Assembly (NCBI RefSeq): GCF_016887965.1
Contig: NZ_JAFDVD010000008.1
Location: 124,001 to 188,000 of the forward strand
Reading direction: 5' to 3'
From: Phycicoccus sonneratiae
GTDB taxonomy: Bacteria; Actinomycetota; Actinomycetes; Actinomycetales; Dermatophilaceae
DNA: 64,000 nucleotides
A program made the translations under genes and the position numbers. Under the pieces are notes generated by a model. It was not told where the DNA came from. It saw only the letters and a program-made list of their open reading frames with translations, and did no database searches. Shown piece by piece: positions 24,579 to 33,905 of this stretch (the stretch's first letter is position 1; every line of letters begins with the position of its first letter).

Positions 24579-24649
24579 CGGGGCTCCCGAGGGCCGGAGG
24601 ACCCTCGGCGTGCACCGGGATCCCGCGCTTGCCGACGTCGCTGCGACGC

Positions 24650-24736
24650 CGACCAGGTCGTCACCCGGGGCACCCCACCGCGGAGGAGGGTTGCCGGCCA
24701 GCGAGCCGGGGCTTGTCACTGGCACTCATGACCTAC
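24650..24736 (-). ncRNA. SAM-IV riboswitch
   Basis: Read on the minus strand the leader has the SAM-IV core: TCATGAGTGCCAG, then GCCCCGGCTCGCTGGCCGG, CAACCCTCC, a CGGTGGGGTGCCCCGGGTGA block and GACCTGG, closed by AGGTC/GACCT as the basal helix. I match this to the family from memory of the consensus. A ten-base hairpin with a CAG loop follows directly, and the start codon lies about 70 bases further. No T tract is present, so SAM probably represses translation by hiding the ribosome site. Confidence 0.85.
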
Positions 24737-27367: not shown

Positions 27368-28284
27368 GGGACCTCCTCGAGGACCAGCCGGTGCCGGGCC
27401 CGCAGCGGCCGCCCGACGAGCCAGGCCAGCGCGGCGAAGACGCCCACGGTGACGGCGATGACGAGGATGAGCACGACCGCCATCGCCGACCCGAGCGCCC
27501 AGTTCTGCGCGGTCTGGAACTGGCTCGCGACGAGCTGGCCGACCATGTTGCCGCGGGCCCCGCCGAGGACCGTGGCCGTCACGTAGTCGCCCATGAGCGG
27601 GATGAAGACGAGCACGGTCCCGGCGACGATGCCCGGCCGGGCGAGCGGCAGGGTGACCCGGGTGAAGGTGCGCCAGCGGGTCGCGCCGAGGTCCTTGCTC
27701 GCCTCGCGCAGCGGCTCCCCCACCCGGTCGAAGGCGACGAAGAGCGGCAGGATCATCAGCGGCAGGTAGTTGTAGACGACGCCGATGAGCACCGCCGTGC
27801 GCGTGTAGAGGATGTCGAGCGGCCCGCTCGTGAGGTGCAGCGACTGGAGCAGCCCGGAGAGCCAGCCCTGCGGCGCGAGGATCACCTGCCAGCCGATCGT
27901 CCGCACGAGGAAGTTCGTCCAGTACGGCACCATGACGAGCGCGATGAGCAGGCCGCGCCGCCGCGCCGGGGCCTTGACCGCCATCCAGTAGGCGGCCGGC
28001 ATCCCGACGAGCAGGCAGAGAGCGGTGCCGGCCACCCCCACCCACAGCGTGTTCCGGAAGGTCGCGAAGAACGTCGAGGAGAAGGTCTCGCGGTAGCGCT
28101 CGAGCGAGAGCACGTCGTTGGCGTGCGTGCCGAACAGCCCGGGCTTGTAGCCGAAGCTGAACCACACGATCGTCGCGATCGGGACGACGAAGAACACGAC
28201 GAGCCACAGCCCGGCCGGCAGGGCCAGCGCGAAGCGCGGGAGGCGCAGCCGCGAGGGCGGCGCCGCGGGGGCGGCCTCAGGCAC
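27364..28284 (-). CDS. ABC transporter permease, PotB type
   Basis: This 306-residue permease has six membrane helices, a long periplasmic loop after the first helix (FGYKPGLFGTHANDVLSLERY) and the EAA motif LREASKDLGATRWRTF that contacts the ATPase. It overlaps the binding-protein gene by eight bases upstream and the PotC gene by four downstream, so the importer subunits are made together. Confidence 0.9.
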   Translation of the reverse strand: MPEAAPAAPPSRLRLPRFALALPAGLWLVVFFVVPIATIVWFSFGYKPGLFGTHANDVLSLERYRETFSSTFFATFRNTLWVGVAGTALCLLVGMPAAYWMAVKAPARRRGLLIALVMVPYWTNFLVRTIGWQVILAPQGWLSGLLQSLHLTSGPLDILYTRTAVLIGVVYNYLPLMILPLFVAFDRVGEPLREASKDLGATRWRTFTRVTLPLARPGIVAGTVLVFIPLMGDYVTATVLGGARGNMVGQLVASQFQTAQNWALGSAMAVVLILVIAVTVGVFAALAWLVGRPLRARHRLVLEEVP

Positions 28285-29497
28285 CCGCCGCCGCCTTGGC
28301 CTTGTTCCAGATGTCGACGGTGCGCTGCTGGGCGTCGTTGACCTCGCCGGTCTTCATCGTCGCGATCTGCTCGGGGGTGAAGAAGACCATGTCGAGCATG
28401 TCGAGGCCGGCCTTCTTCGCGGCGTCCTCGATGTCCTTGGCGCCGGTGTGGTAGCCGATGTAGTCGACGTTGGCCAGCTGGTTCTCGGGGGTGAGGACGT
28501 AGTCGATGAACGCGTGCGCGGCCTCGGGGTGCGGGGCGCCGGCGGCGATCGCCCAGTTGTCCATCCACAGCTCGGTCGTCGGCGAGCCGAGCACCCACTG
28601 CCACCGCTCGGGGTCCTTGCTGTTCTGGATGCCGATGCGGGCGTCGCCGTTCCACACCTGCATCAGCCAGTGCGTCCCCTGGGGGATGGCCTGCCCGCCG
28701 GGGTAGGAGTCGAAGGCGGCGACGTGCGGGGCGAGCGTCTCGACGACGAACTTCTCGGCGGCGTCGATCTGCGCGGAGTCGGTGGTGTTCCAGTCGATCC
28801 CGTTGGCCCAGTAGTAGATCCCGGTGATCTCGGCCGGGTCGTCGAGCACCGAGACCTTGCCGCTCGCCTCCTTCGTCGCGGCGTCGGCGAAGTCGCTCCA
28901 GGTCTTCAGCTCGCGGGTGATCTTGGTCTTGTCGTAGACGAACCCGGTGGTGCCCCACGCCTTGCAGATCGAGTAGTTGTTCTCCGGGTCCCACGCCTGC
29001 CCGAGGAACTGCGGGTCCATGTGCTGGAGGTTGGTGATGAGCTCCTTGTTGATCGGCGCGAGCAGCCCGTTCTGCACCATCTGCGGGATGAACGCGCCGG
29101 TGGGGACGACGATGTCGTAGCCGCCGGTGCCCTTGCCGGCGACGAGCTTGGAGATGAGCTCCTCGTTCGAGCCGAACGAGTCGGTGGTGATCTTCGGCCC
29201 CTTGTCCTTCGTGAACGCCTCGAGCACCTCCGGGGCGTCGTAGTCGCCCCACGAGTACATCGAGATCGAGCCCTCGAGCGGCCCGCCGGTCGCGACCTGG
29301 CTCGGCGGCGCACCGGTGGGCACGGCGGTGGGGTTGGACGCCCCCGACCCGCTGCCCCCACCGCCGCACGCCGAGAGCACGCCCGCCCCGCCCACGGCCG
29401 CGAGGCCGAGGAGGGAGCGGCGGGAGAGCTCGCGGCGGATGCGCGGCACGGCGGAGGTGTGGGCGAGGATGCGCAGCGGCTGCTCGGGGCTGGTCAT
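28277..29497 (-). CDS. Polyamine-type extracellular substrate-binding lipoprotein, PotD/F family
   Basis: This 406-residue protein has a twin-arginine motif (SRRSLLGLA near residue 26), a lipobox LSAC with the lipidated Cys44, and a mature domain of the PotD fold. The start of the fold, ISMYSWGDYDAPEVLEAF, is a family hallmark. Asp and Trp residues typical of polyamine sites are present (YYWANGID, MDNWAI), but the exact ligand cannot be assigned; opines or other amines are also possible. It lies between the ATPase gene and the permeases. Confidence 0.9.
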   Translation of the reverse strand: MTSPEQPLRILAHTSAVPRIRRELSRRSLLGLAAVGGAGVLSACGGGGSGSGASNPTAVPTGAPPSQVATGGPLEGSISMYSWGDYDAPEVLEAFTKDKGPKITTDSFGSNEELISKLVAGKGTGGYDIVVPTGAFIPQMVQNGLLAPINKELITNLQHMDPQFLGQAWDPENNYSICKAWGTTGFVYDKTKITRELKTWSDFADAATKEASGKVSVLDDPAEITGIYYWANGIDWNTTDSAQIDAAEKFVVETLAPHVAAFDSYPGGQAIPQGTHWLMQVWNGDARIGIQNSKDPERWQWVLGSPTTELWMDNWAIAAGAPHPEAAHAFIDYVLTPENQLANVDYIGYHTGAKDIEDAAKKAGLDMLDMVFFTPEQIATMKTGEVNDAQQRTVDIWNKAKAAAGA

Positions 29498-29519
29498 CGG
29501 GGGTCCTCTCCGGAAGGGG

Positions 29520-30677
29520 TCAGCCGGCCCGCTGGTCGGGGACGGAGGTCGGTGGGGGCGCCGAGTGGGCGCCGTCGTGGGGGAAGACGTGCACGTCGTC
29601 GGCGCGCCAGCGGCACCAGCCGGTGTCGCCGACCGCGAGCCGTGGGGACGCCGGGGTGGGCCGGCGCACGAGGAGGGTGTGCCCGTGCCCGGCGTCGACG
29701 AGGAACTGCCGGGTCTCGCCCTGGTGGGCGACGCCGATGACGGTGCCGCGCACCGTGTTCTCGCTCGTCCCCGGGGGTTGCTCGGCCACGAGGTCGACGA
29801 ACTCGGGGCGCACGGCGACCCGGACGCGCTGGCCGGGCCGCACGTCGCTCGGACGGGTGGAGCGCAGCGGCCCGAGGTCGGTGTCGACGGCGCCGTCGTC
29901 GCCGGCGCGTCCGTCGAGGAAGTTCTGCTGGCCGACGAAGCCGGCGACGTAGGCCGAGGCCGGGCTGGAGTAGATGGTGTCGGCGTCGCCGAGCTGCTCG
30001 ACCCGTCCCTCGCGCATGATGGCGATCCGGTCGCTCATCGAGAGCGCCTCGCCCTGGTCGTGCGTGACGAAGACGAAGCTGATGCCGAGCCGGGTCTGGA
30101 GCAGCTTGAGCTCGACCTGCATCTCCTCGCGGAGCTGGCGGTCGAGGGCGCCGAGCGGCTCGTCGAGGAGCAGCACGCTCGGGCGGTTGACGAGGGCGCG
30201 GGCCAGGGCGACGCGCTGCTGCTGACCACCGGACAGCTGGGCCGGCCGGCGCCCGGCATACCCGCGCATCTGCACCATGTCGAGGGCCTCGGCCACCTTG
30301 GTGCGGATGTCGGCCTTCGGCGTGCGCTTCTGCTCGAGGCCGTACGCGACGTTCTCGGCGACCGACATGTGCGGGAAGAGGGCGTAGGCCTGGAAGACGG
30401 TGTTGACGTTGCGGCGGTGCGGCGGCACCCCGAGCACGCTCTGCCCGTCGACGAGGACGTCACCGGTGTCGGGGTGCTCGAAGCCGGCGACCATCCGCAG
30501 CGTCGTCGTCTTGCCGCAGCCGGACGGCCCGAGGAGGCTGAGGAACTCGCCGCGGCGCACCGTGAGCGTCAGGTCGTCGACGGCGGCGACGTCACCGTAG
30601 AACTTGCTGACCCGGGTCAGCACGACGGCATCGGCACCCCCGGCCTGCGGTGCGGCGGTCTCGTCCGGTGTCGTCAC
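29520..30677 (-). CDS. ABC transporter ATP-binding protein, PotA type
   Basis: This 385-residue ATPase has Walker A GPSGCGKTT, Q-loop VFQAYALFPHM, signature QLSGGQQQRVALARAL, Walker B VLLLDEPLGALD and H-loop VTHDQGEALSMSD. A C-terminal TOBE domain (residues about 280-355) follows. It is the first gene of the import operon and lies 140 bases downstream of leuS, beyond that gene's terminator hairpin. A short inverted repeat GATCG-N5-CGATC sits in the likely promoter. Confidence 0.93.
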   Translation of the reverse strand: MTTPDETAAPQAGGADAVVLTRVSKFYGDVAAVDDLTLTVRRGEFLSLLGPSGCGKTTTLRMVAGFEHPDTGDVLVDGQSVLGVPPHRRNVNTVFQAYALFPHMSVAENVAYGLEQKRTPKADIRTKVAEALDMVQMRGYAGRRPAQLSGGQQQRVALARALVNRPSVLLLDEPLGALDRQLREEMQVELKLLQTRLGISFVFVTHDQGEALSMSDRIAIMREGRVEQLGDADTIYSSPASAYVAGFVGQQNFLDGRAGDDGAVDTDLGPLRSTRPSDVRPGQRVRVAVRPEFVDLVAEQPPGTSENTVRGTVIGVAHQGETRQFLVDAGHGHTLLVRRPTPASPRLAVGDTGWCRWRADDVHVFPHDGAHSAPPPTSVPDQRAG

Positions 30678-30817: not shown

Positions 30818-33745
30818 TCAGGCCGGGACGACGTTGACGAGCTTCGGCGCGCGGACGATGACCGTGCGCACCCCGTTCTCGAGGCTCGCCTGCACCTTGG
30901 GGCTGGCCAGCGCGAGCTCGCGCAGCGCGTCCTCGGTGATGTCGCTCGGCACCTCGAGGCGGTCCTTGACCTTGCCGCGCACCTGGACGACGCACGTGAC
31001 CGTGTCGTCCACCAGCAGGGCGGGGTCGGCCACCGGGAACGCCTCGTGGGCGAGGGACTCGTTGTGCCCCAACCGCATCCAGAGCTCCTCGGCGATGTGC
31101 GGGGCCAGCGGGGCGACCATGAGGACCAGCGCCTCGGCGGCCTCGCGGGGCACGCCGCCCTCGAGCTTGGTCAGCGCGTTGTTCAGCTCGGTGATGCGGG
31201 CGATCGCGGTGTTGAAGCCCAGCGCCCCGAAGTCGGTGCGCACGGCGTCGACGGTGCGGTGCAGCACCTTGGCGACCTCGGCGTCCGGAGCGGCGTCGAC
31301 GACGCGCAGCGCACCGGTCTCCTCGTCGACGACGTTGCGCCACAGCCGCTGGAGGAAGCGCTGCGGCCCGACGACGGCCCGGGTGTCCCACGGCTTGCTC
31401 TGCTCCAGCGGGCCGAGGCCCATCTCGTAGAGCCGGAAGGTGTCGGCCCCGTAGGCGGCGTACATGTCGTCCGGGCTGACCATGTTCTTCAGCGACTTGC
31501 CGATCTTGCCGAACTCGCGCGCGACCGGCTCGCCCTCGTGGCTGAACGTCGGGTGCCCGTCGTCACCGACGCCCTCGACGACCTCGGAGGCCTCGACGTA
31601 CTGGCCCCGCGCGTCGGTGTACGCCGGCGCCTGGATGTAGCCCTGGGCGAAGTACGTGCGGAACGGCTCGTCGGAGCTGAGGTGCCCCAGGTCGTGGAGC
31701 ACCTTGTGCCAGAACCGGGCGTAGAGCAGGTGCAGCACGGCGTGCTCGACGCCGCCGACGTAGAGGTCGACACCGCCCGGGTCGCGGGTGCCGGCGGGGG
31801 CGACGGCGACCGGCTCGTCGCGCGGGCCCATCCAGTAGCGCTCGTTGTCGGGGTCGACGACGGCGGCCTCGTTGGCCGGGTCGAGGTAGCGCAGGTAGTA
31901 CCAGCAGGATCCGGCCCACTGCGGCATGACGTTGGTGTCGCGGCGGAACCGGCGCACGCCCCGGCCGTCGCCGAGGTCGGTCTCGACCTGCACCCAGTCG
32001 GCGTCGCGGGCCAGCGGCGGCTCGGGCTCGCTGTCGGCGTCGTCCGGGTCGTACACCTTCGGCGAGTAGTCCGGCACGTCCGGCAGCTCGACGGGCAGCT
32101 GGTCCTCCGGAACCCCGTACGCGATGCCGTCCTCGTCGAAGAGGACGGGGAACGGCTCGCCCCAGTAGCGCTGGCGGGCGAAGAGCCAGTCGCGCAGCTT
32201 GTAGGTGACCGTCGCCTCGCCGAGGCCCTTGGCCTCGAGCCATGCCGTGATCCGCTCCTTGGCCTCCGCGACGCCCAGACCGTCGAGGTCGACCTCGTCG
32301 TTGTGCGAGTTGACCGCCGGGCCGTCGCCGGTGAAGGCGGTCGACTCGTCGTGGTCGGCCGGCGGCTGGACGGTGCGGACGATGGGCAGCTCGAAGGCGG
32401 TGGCGAAGTCCCAGTCGCGCTCGTCCTGCGCGGGCACGGCCATGATCGCGCCGGTGCCGTAGCCCATGAGCACGTAGTCGGCGACGAAGACCGGCACGCG
32501 GGCGCCGTTGACCGGGTTCGTCGCCCAGCCGCCGGTGAACACGCCGGTCTTGTCCTTGCCCTCGCTCTGCCGCTCGAGGTCGGTCTTCGCGGCGGCCTGC
32601 GCGCGGTAGGCCTCGACCGCCTCGCGGGGGGTCTCCGCGCCACCGGTCCAGGCGTCGCGGGTGCCCTCGGGCCAGCCGCCGGCGGGGACGAGAGTGTCGA
32701 CGAGCGGGTGCTCGGGGGCGAGGACCATGAAGGTCGCGCCGAAGAGGGTGTCGGGCCGGGTCGTGAAGACCTCGATGCCGGCCCCGGGGGTGGCGGCGGT
32801 GGCGGCGTCGGCCACCGGGAAGGTCACCCGGGCGCCCTGGCTGCGACCGATCCAGTTGCGCTGCATCGTCTTGACCTTCTCGGGCCAGTCGACGCGGTCG
32901 AGGTCGTCGGCCAGCCGGTCGGCGTACTCGGTGATGCGCATGACCCACTGGCGCAGGTTGCGCTTGAACACCGGGAAGTTGCCGCGGTCGGAGCGTCCCT
33001 CGTTGGTGACCTCCTCGTTGGCCAGCACCGTGCCGAGGCCCGGGCACCAGTTGACGGTGGCCTCGACGCTCTGCACGAGCCGCTGCGCGTCGAGGATCTC
33101 GGCGCGCTCGGTGTGCGACAGGTCGTCCCAGCCGCGGCCGTCGTCGGCGGGCAGGGGTCGGGTGCCGTCGCGGTACTCGGAGACGAGCTCGTCGATGGGG
33201 CGGGCGCGACCGGTGCCGCCGTCCTCGCGGGGGGCGTCGGCGTCGTACCAGGAGTTGAAGATCTGGAGGAAGATCCACTGGGTCCAGCGGTAGTACTCCG
33301 GGTCGATGGTGCGGATGGCGCGGCGGTCGTCGTGGCCGAGGCCGAGGCGGCGCAGCTGGCGCGCCATGATCGCGATGTTCTCCTCGGTCGTCTTGCGCGG
33401 GTGCTGCCCGGTCTGCACGGCGTACTGCTCCGCGGGCAGGCCGAAGGCGTCGTAGCCGAGGCAGTGCAGGACGTTCTTGCCGAGCATCCGCTGGTAGCGC
33501 GCGAAGACGTCGGTGGCGATGTAGCCGAGCGGGTGGCCGACGTGGAGGCCGGCGCCGCTCGGGTACGGGAACATGTCGAGGACGAGGAGGTGCCCGCCGG
33601 TGTAGCCGGCGACGGCGTCCGGCTCGGCCCAGGGGCCGGCGGGGTTCGGCGCGTGGAAGGTGCCACGCTCCTGCCAACGGTCCTGCCAGGCGACCTCGAT
33701 CGTCCCGGCCAGCTCGGCGGTGTAGCGGTGCGGGGTCTCGCTCAT
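30818..33745 (-). CDS. leuS: Leucyl-tRNA synthetase
   Basis: LeuS charges tRNA-Leu. The protein (975 residues from the ATG at 33745) has the HIGH-type motif [15 protein letters not shown], a large editing domain with [19 protein letters not shown], and a KMSKS-type loop [14 protein letters not shown], then an anticodon-binding end. An in-frame ATG at 33778 touches the T tract of an intrinsic terminator. I therefore prefer 33745, where [11 protein letters not shown] begins as in relatives. A leucine-rich leader peptide and terminator precede the gene, implying attenuation by charged tRNA-Leu. Confidence 0.96.
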
Positions 33746-33785
33746 CTCGTCCTCGTCGTCGTGTTGTCCTGCGGCCATGAAAAAA

Positions 33786-33803
33786 CCCCTCGCACAGGAG
33801 GGG
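33786..33803 (-). terminator. Intrinsic attenuator terminator before leuS
   Basis: On the minus strand CCCCTC and GAGGGG form a stem with a six-base CTGTGC loop, followed at once by six T residues. It is a textbook intrinsic terminator, rare in this GC-rich window, and it stands between the leucine leader peptide and leuS. Confidence 0.88.
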
Positions 33804-33832
33804 TCGCCGCGCGGGCCGGGTGGCCGGCGCGG

Positions 33833-33859
33833 CTACGCAAGGAGCAGGAGCCTCGGCAC
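33833..33859 (-). CDS. Leucine leader peptide of leuS (MPRLLLLA)
   Basis: Eight codons starting GTG encode MPRLLLLA with four successive leucine codons (CTC CTG CTC CTT), then TAG. The -10 box TACCCT at 33871-33866 ends six bases before the GTG, so the mRNA is probably leaderless. Between its stop and the leuS terminator lies a GC-rich stem (about 33807-33832) that could compete with the terminator. When charged tRNA-Leu is scarce the ribosome should stall here and allow leuS to be read, as in classical amino-acid attenuation. Confidence 0.75.
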   Translation of the reverse strand: MPRLLLLA

Positions 33860-33905
33860 GCGCTCAGGGTACCGCAGCGGGCGTGTCGGGCGCCGGGGCG
33901 CCCGG

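Follow-up and report, generated by a model that had tools for sequence, protein, structure and literature searches.

A probable leucine-sensing attenuator before leuS in Phycicoccus sonneratiae and its counterparts in other actinobacteria

Attenuators of the classical kind were predicted in 2005 before the leucyl-tRNA synthetase gene leuS of Streptomyces avermitilis and Streptomyces coelicolor (PMC1262725), and RNA-seq of Streptomyces lividans TK24 in 2021 yielded a leaderless leader peptide before the same gene, LeuL2 (MRAVRLLLSEPR), together with a hairpin and a uridine stretch (PMC8079986). Here we describe an element of this sort before leuS in a 64,000-nucleotide stretch of the genome of Phycicoccus sonneratiae (contig NZ_JAFDVD010000008.1, positions 124,001 to 188,000), which we call the window and in whose coordinates all positions are given. 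We consider it likely that the element is a transcription attenuator of leuS, which would sense charged tRNA-Leu through the translation of a leaderless, leucine-rich peptide. Judged by a sequence model, by its layout, and by its position, it belongs to the Streptomyces kind of leuS leader. What we add to the published picture is the breadth of the family, the spacings from the leucine codons to the first stem and between the two hairpins, the final CTT codon, a TG-containing site past the terminator, look-alikes before ilvB, and the finding of no antiterminator. We found no report of a leuS leader for the window's group in the literature that we searched, whose coverage excluded most subscription papers. 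Lopatovskaya et al. (2010) reportedly treat attenuation in operons for amino acids and for aminoacyl-tRNA, and they may already list more leuS leaders.

The whole element lies on the minus strand and reads toward leuS. Its -10 element is TACCCT (33866-33871). Six nucleotides, GAGCGC, separate it from the start codon of a short open reading frame (ORF). This leuL-like ORF (33833-33859) runs GTG CCG AGG CTC CTG CTC CTT GCG TAG, which encodes MPRLLLLA, so the GTG at 33859-33857 is followed shortly by four leucine codons in succession (CTC CTG CTC CTT). Hairpin 1, the proposed sensor hairpin (33806-33833), has an outer stem in which GCCGCGC (33833-33827) pairs with GCGCGGC (33812-33806), and GGCC pairs with GGCC within it. 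The intrinsic terminator (33780-33804 with its six T included; called at 33805-33784 by a terminator scan) has the arms ACCCCTC (33804-33798) and GAGGGGT (33791-33785), the loop CTGTGC, and six T at 33785-33780. After a C at 33779 comes an ATG (33776-33778), 7 nt past the 3' arm and in the frame of leuS; it is the window's form of the TG-containing site. The minimum-energy fold of the window sequence holds both hairpins. A first-pass annotation of this DNA had listed the same series of parts (TACCCT, GTG, four leucine codons, GC stem, terminator, six T, in-frame ATG), and our reading of the minus strand confirms all of them. The leuS gene itself, counted from its probable start, occupies 30818-33745 (minus strand). 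The leuS frame (986 amino acids) matches TIGR00396 (leuS_bact), scoring 862 bits where the cut-off is 548, and it is open in phase up to the ATG at 33778. Nevertheless, the true start is probably the ATG at 33745 (MSETPHRY...), because related loci vary in both length and frame between the site at 33778 and the conserved start.

The element stands out from its surroundings. Within the 64-kb window (74.6% GC), it is the sole ORF of up to 20 codons that has at least three consecutive leucine codons and an RTG start placed 6 or 7 nt after a TANNNT, and 40 first-order Markov resamples of the window gave no comparable combination of -10 element and leucine run. The pattern CCCC-N4-14-GGGG-Y-T5 has a single occurrence in the 4.11-Mb genome, at the leuS terminator. 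Two further U-run terminator patterns had 8 and 7 sites, versus 17 and 14 for reversed controls (59 genomes of the family each). Because both patterns are rarer than their reversed controls, U-run terminators appear to be uncommon in the family, and for the same reason there is no set of ordinary terminators that could serve as a control for the site past the terminator.

In the window's genus, the element stands before leuS in each of the 12 genomes, always with three or four consecutive leucine codons; the first-pass annotation had proposed the leucine run in close relatives as a check on its reading, and the run is there in every one of them. To follow the element further, we used a covariance model, R1, built from 39 loci of the window's family and order. 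R1 matches 144 of 186 genomes of the family and 90 of 297 genomes of the order at E <= 1e-6, and 166 of 394 genomes of the class at E <= 1e-5. These are counts of genomes with matches, and the position before leuS was confirmed for part of the strong ones. At E <= 0.01 the tallies rise to 169 of 186 and 148 of 297, and they include leaders other than those of leuS. We do not take these tallies as numbers of leuS leaders: an ilvB leader (G096) is among the weak matches, and so is a genome (G125) whose leuS (L040) lacks the element. When named leuS loci were picked by their protein, 52 of 80 matched R1, including loci from Jiangella, Streptomyces, Kitasatospora, Micromonospora, Saccharopolyspora, Geodermatophilus, and Blastococcus, and the listed leuS loci of Isoptericola, Mycolicibacterium, Rhodococcus, Gordonia, Brevibacterium, Cellulomonas, and Actinotalea gave no match to the model. 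An early set of 57 loci had the leader in 43, none in 13, and one locus (L026) without an anchor. In two of the leuS loci without a leader (L031 and L038), a TANNNT stands 6-7 nt before the start codon of leuS itself, which suggests a leaderless leuS mRNA after the loss, or in the absence, of an attenuator.

R1 also matches the leuS leaders of Streptomycetaceae (L229 with 69.9 bits, L222 with 69.7, and L219 with 74.3), so one model covers both groups; the leader peptide of L229 is MRAVSLLLSEPR. The window's element and the Streptomyces leader share the gene, a leucine-run peptide directly upstream of leuS, a hairpin at the leader's stop codon, and a U-run terminator. They differ in three ways. 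First, the stop codon is at the start of hairpin 1 in the window's genus (..LLLLA*) but inside the hairpin in Streptomyces (..PR*). Second, an ATG follows the T run in the window's genus, whereas Streptomyces has NTT. Third, we found no antiterminator, whereas one was reported for Streptomyces (PMC1262725). In Rfam 15, the window at gathering scores matches only SAM-IV and tRNA, both away from the leuS leader, and the elements L001, L148, and L229 had no match up to E of 0.1, either to T-box or to any other family. These results suggest that actinobacteria widely share the Streptomyces leuS leader as a regulator, one for which we have no Rfam match.

Conservation and covariation are the strongest evidence that the element is real. 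In alignment A2, 17 of the 18 helix pairs are changed on both sides and 92.4% of cells pair. Hairpin 1 contributes 10 of 11 such pairs (90.5% of cells paired) and the terminator 7 of 7 (95.4%). None of 500 shuffles reached the observed values on any measure, and slid controls were 46-59% paired. A2 was fitted to the model's structure and hence leans toward it. An alignment of fewer sequences made with MAFFT (A1) gives the same picture, with 90.7% paired and 10 of 18 pairs changed on both sides. The consensus fold holds the two helices and nothing else.

The spacings, too, are largely fixed. We measured 152 elements, namely 100 loci from the order and the 52 named loci; four pairs are identical, which leaves 148 distinct elements. 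The 100 loci include 5 of the 12 genus members, with some near-duplicates dropped and mostly one match per genus. With a leader called wherever there were at least two leucine codons, 146 of the 152 elements have one (142 distinct). A TANNNT ends 6 nt before the start codon in 94 of the 142 distinct leaders and 7 nt before it in 42 (136 together). Without removal of duplicates, 140 of 146 leaders have it at 6 or 7 nt, and any other distance from 0 to 20 nt accounts for at most one leader. TGCG lies just 5' of the -10 element in 78 of 140 leuS leaders. The start codon is ATG in 94 of the distinct leaders and GTG in 48. The last leucine codon is CTT in 123 of 142, even though CTT makes up 3.3% of the leucine codons in long open frames of the 80 leuS loci. 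From the first base of that last codon to the first stem base of hairpin 1 is 8 nt in 129 of 139 (three distinct leaders were dropped, as our script found no stem match), and hairpin 1 is separated from the terminator by 0 nt in 80 of 142 and by 1 nt in 43 (123 together). The leader's stop codon falls mostly in one of two places, at the first base of the stem or 7 nt inside it, so it is the leucine codon rather than the stop that keeps its distance to hairpin 1. Kinship inflates all of these counts, yet the same pattern is seen across families.

Could all this be an accident, with the upstream gene's terminator standing beside an unrelated short ORF? The stretch does sit between open frames on one strand. 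However, this idea is already refuted by the genus-wide conservation and the covariation, and the fixed spacings and the codon bias go against it as well, so we give it next to no credence. Instead, a leucine leader peptide, probably leaderless to judge from the -10 spacing, and an intrinsic terminator are kept as a unit before leuS. The first-pass annotation had proposed this leader and terminator, and here it is supported by the -10 spacing in those 136 of 142 leaders, by the covarying structure, and by the homologue in S. lividans (PMC8079986). It had also considered such an arrangement unusual, which does not hold up, as attenuation was predicted for leuS of Streptomyces in 2005 (PMC1262725) and the R1 matches are widespread.

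We observe directly which parts make up the element, how they are conserved, that both hairpins covary, and that the spacings are fixed; how the attenuator would work is our reconstruction. RNA polymerase would initiate at or beside the GTG at 33859, and a ribosome would load on the leaderless 5' end and decode the leucine run, which ends in the rare CTT 8 nt before hairpin 1. If the ribosome is held at the first leucine codon, hairpin 1 would stay closed; if it gets to the last leucine codon or to the stop, hairpin 1 would open. The state of hairpin 1 would then be relayed to the terminator, which starts 0-1 nt later. With ample charged tRNA-Leu we would expect termination, and with a shortage we would expect read-through into leuS. 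The relay is the least certain step; our best guess, and no more than a guess, is that the abutting hairpin acts sterically or through pausing. The many natural variants with fixed spacings make the mechanism testable.

Folding calculations are consistent with the first half of this scheme. If we assume that the ribosome covers 12 nt past the first base of the A-site codon, then the 3' strand of hairpin 1 is paired with a mean probability of 0.88 when the ribosome stands at the first leucine codon, 0.31 at the last, and 0.22 at the stop, though this strand is still paired above 0.5 in 18 (last leucine) and 26 (stop) of 146 leaders. Hairpin 1 is thus a plausible sensor in these models.

Several results weigh against this explanation. 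The terminator forms in every ribosome state, with a mean probability of 0.96 without a ribosome, 0.98 with one at the last leucine codon, and 0.98 with one at the stop (n = 146), and it falls below 0.5 in just 4, 2, and 1 of the 146, respectively. The terminator arms have no excess complementarity to the loop of hairpin 1, to its 3' strand, or to the leader (mean z of -0.26 to +0.42); the most negative values were for the terminator's 3' arm with the leader, where z was below -1.5 in 10%. Because the terminator is formed in all states and there is no excess complementarity, static folds give no route from a stalled ribosome to read-through. As for distribution, 42 of the 186 family genomes have no R1 match at E <= 1e-6, and in one genus of the family (g50), 15 of 16 genomes match weakly. 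Our script called no leader in 6 of the 152 elements (L088, L094, L106, L127, L138, and L211), so weak or absent leucine runs do occur. Finally, in the ilvB leader of S. coelicolor, substitution of the candidate codons left regulation unchanged (PMC1262725).

These folds also bear on whether the element is a classical attenuator of the trp type, in which stalling at the leucine codons would favor a third, mutually exclusive antiterminator helix. Two features expected of such an attenuator are present, namely a leader ORF that carries regulatory codons and an intrinsic terminator. The Streptomyces leuS elements were described as classical, with antiterminator and terminator hairpins (PMC1262725), and the Corynebacterium ilvB-II motif was assigned an antiterminator that pairs a terminator arm with the loop of hairpin 1 (PMC10272879). 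On the other hand, we found no conserved antiterminator by ribosome-masked folding, by folding truncated transcripts, or from duplex energies, all of them thermodynamic approaches whose models exclude pseudoknots and kinetic folding. Before its 3' arm exists, the 5' arm of the terminator is mostly unsequestered (mean 0.14-0.31 depending on the state; above 0.5 in 10-26 of 146), duplex energies of the terminator arms to the loop, stem, or leader are no better than those with shuffled partners, and the two-helix consensus fold leaves out any mutually exclusive third helix. With the terminator paired at 0.96-0.98 in all states, the 5' arm mostly free, and no excess complementarity, static calculations do not support the textbook antiterminator. 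We think that a trp-type mechanism is unlikely.

An extended version of the attenuator that we favor would use two hairpins and no antiterminator. The sensor hairpin, opened while the rare CUU 8 nt upstream is decoded, would abut the terminator (0-1 nt) and alter termination by stacking, by crowding of the exit channel, or by pausing; the TG step 7 nt past the stem would set the point of polymerase pausing or release in many lineages; and one such module would serve both leuS and ilvB across the actinobacteria. We offer this version tentatively, as a doubtful possibility. If an antiterminator is indeed absent, leader-peptide attenuation would require another physical mechanism in addition to the alternative helix of the textbooks. 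In the S10 operon, attenuation can reportedly require a hairpin upstream of the terminator (Zengel and Lindahl, 1996, cited in PMC8269248).

The site 7 nt past the terminator arm varies among lineages. Among the 100 order loci, it is ATG in 50, GTG in 29, TTG in 15, CTG in 4, and something else in 2, and this set is slightly biased toward the site because R1 contains it. Of the 52 named loci, 28 carry one of ATG, GTG, and TTG there, 2 have CTG, 19 have NTT, and 3 have something else. NTT is found chiefly in what we take, from the genus names, to be Streptomycetaceae and Pseudonocardiaceae. The pause consensus of RNA polymerase, G-10 Y-1 G+1, fits the order set and not the NTT loci.

Alternatively, the site could be a start codon, and control could be translational: the GAGGGG of the terminator's 3' arm would act as the Shine-Dalgarno sequence of a start codon that follows 7 nt later, and the hairpin would mask it. 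This would explain why ATG, GTG, or TTG occupies the site in 94 of the 100 order loci even where the T run is broken, and why the 3' arm is almost entirely G and A; moreover, all six of the ilvB look-alikes described below have ATG or GTG there. However, stops are placed in the frame that opens at this codon much as in the two shifted frames. Across 96 loci (4 of the 100 had no leuS start assigned), this frame has its stop no more than 12 nt from the leuS start in 36, versus 36 and 34 for the shifted frames, and early stops number 15, versus 13 and 15. Also, the start codon is followed at once by a stop in 4 of 100 loci, the site is NTT in 19 of the 52 named loci, and the leuS start lies 18-154 nt beyond the site in the order loci. 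Translational control by this means seems to us quite improbable. We likewise rejected a translated second upstream ORF (uORF2) that would begin at the ATG, GTG, or TTG: there is no frame signal, and the same start-stop and NTT loci stand against it.

A further possibility is that the leader chiefly supplies ribosomes that reinitiate at leuS, the terminator being incidental. Reinitiation at leader genes was proposed for Actinobacteria, but with a peak at 10-11 bp from leader to gene (PMC4833913), as opposed to the 87 nt from the leader stop to the ATG at 33745. Two covarying hairpins also stand between the leader and leuS. We consider this explanation highly improbable.

The element has look-alikes before another gene. 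Of seven secondary R1 matches that we examined, one (L153) is another leuS leader, and the other six (L148, L149, L150, L151, L152, and L154, from several genera of the family) precede genes for the large subunit of acetolactate synthase. These six ilvB look-alikes have branched-chain codons (MARILVLP* or similar), two hairpins in a similar arrangement, and, without exception, a final CTT and the ATG or GTG 7 nt past the arm. Attenuators of ilvB are known in actinobacteria, including the Corynebacterium ilvB-II motif (PMC10272879) and the leader of ilvB1 in Mycobacterium tuberculosis (PMC13236596; see also PMC1262725). They resemble the leuS leader in having a short ORF rich in branched-chain codons, a hairpin, and a terminator. 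The look-alikes read isoleucine, leucine, and valine (leucine and valine in L152), whereas the leuS leader reads leucine. Furthermore, all six have TTGAC upstream, whereas none of 140 leuS leaders has it in the stretch 26-14 nt before the -10 element. Within the window's genus, one pattern found no ilvB look-alike in 12 genomes and R1 gave one match in G000, though a diverged copy could escape such searches.

Two more distant systems also link codons in a leader to the gene downstream. The LEU element of leuA likewise places a run of leucine codons before a leucine gene in Actinobacteria, and it pairs those codons with the Shine-Dalgarno region of leuA (PMC1262725). It is a pseudoknot, and no typical terminator is reported for the leuA leader of S. 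lividans (PMC1262725, PMC8079986), whereas the window's element has one. The minimum-energy fold of the window does pair the leucine codons (33835-33847) with the Shine-Dalgarno region of leuS (33746-33759, minus strand), much as in the LEU element; relatives show no enrichment for this pairing (mean z of 0.06, n = 138). The other system is that of the mycobacterial polycysteine leaderless uORFs, on which Canestrari (2020) is said to have worked. There too a leaderless uORF has codons for the amino acid with which the gene downstream is concerned (PMC4633059), but the amino acid is cysteine, and no conserved terminator hairpin is reported (PMC1262725).

Elsewhere in the window, the SAM-IV riboswitch lies at 24620-24733 (minus strand, 115 bits), at the start of an open frame at 24725-23226; in Streptomyces clavuligerus, a SAM-IV riboswitch precedes a class V aminotransferase gene (PMC8269248). 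Downstream of leuS, at 28277-30677 (minus strand), are genes that resemble parts of a spermidine/putrescine ABC transporter, namely a PotA-like ATPase (29520-30677, minus strand) and a PotD-like binding protein (28277-29497, minus strand).

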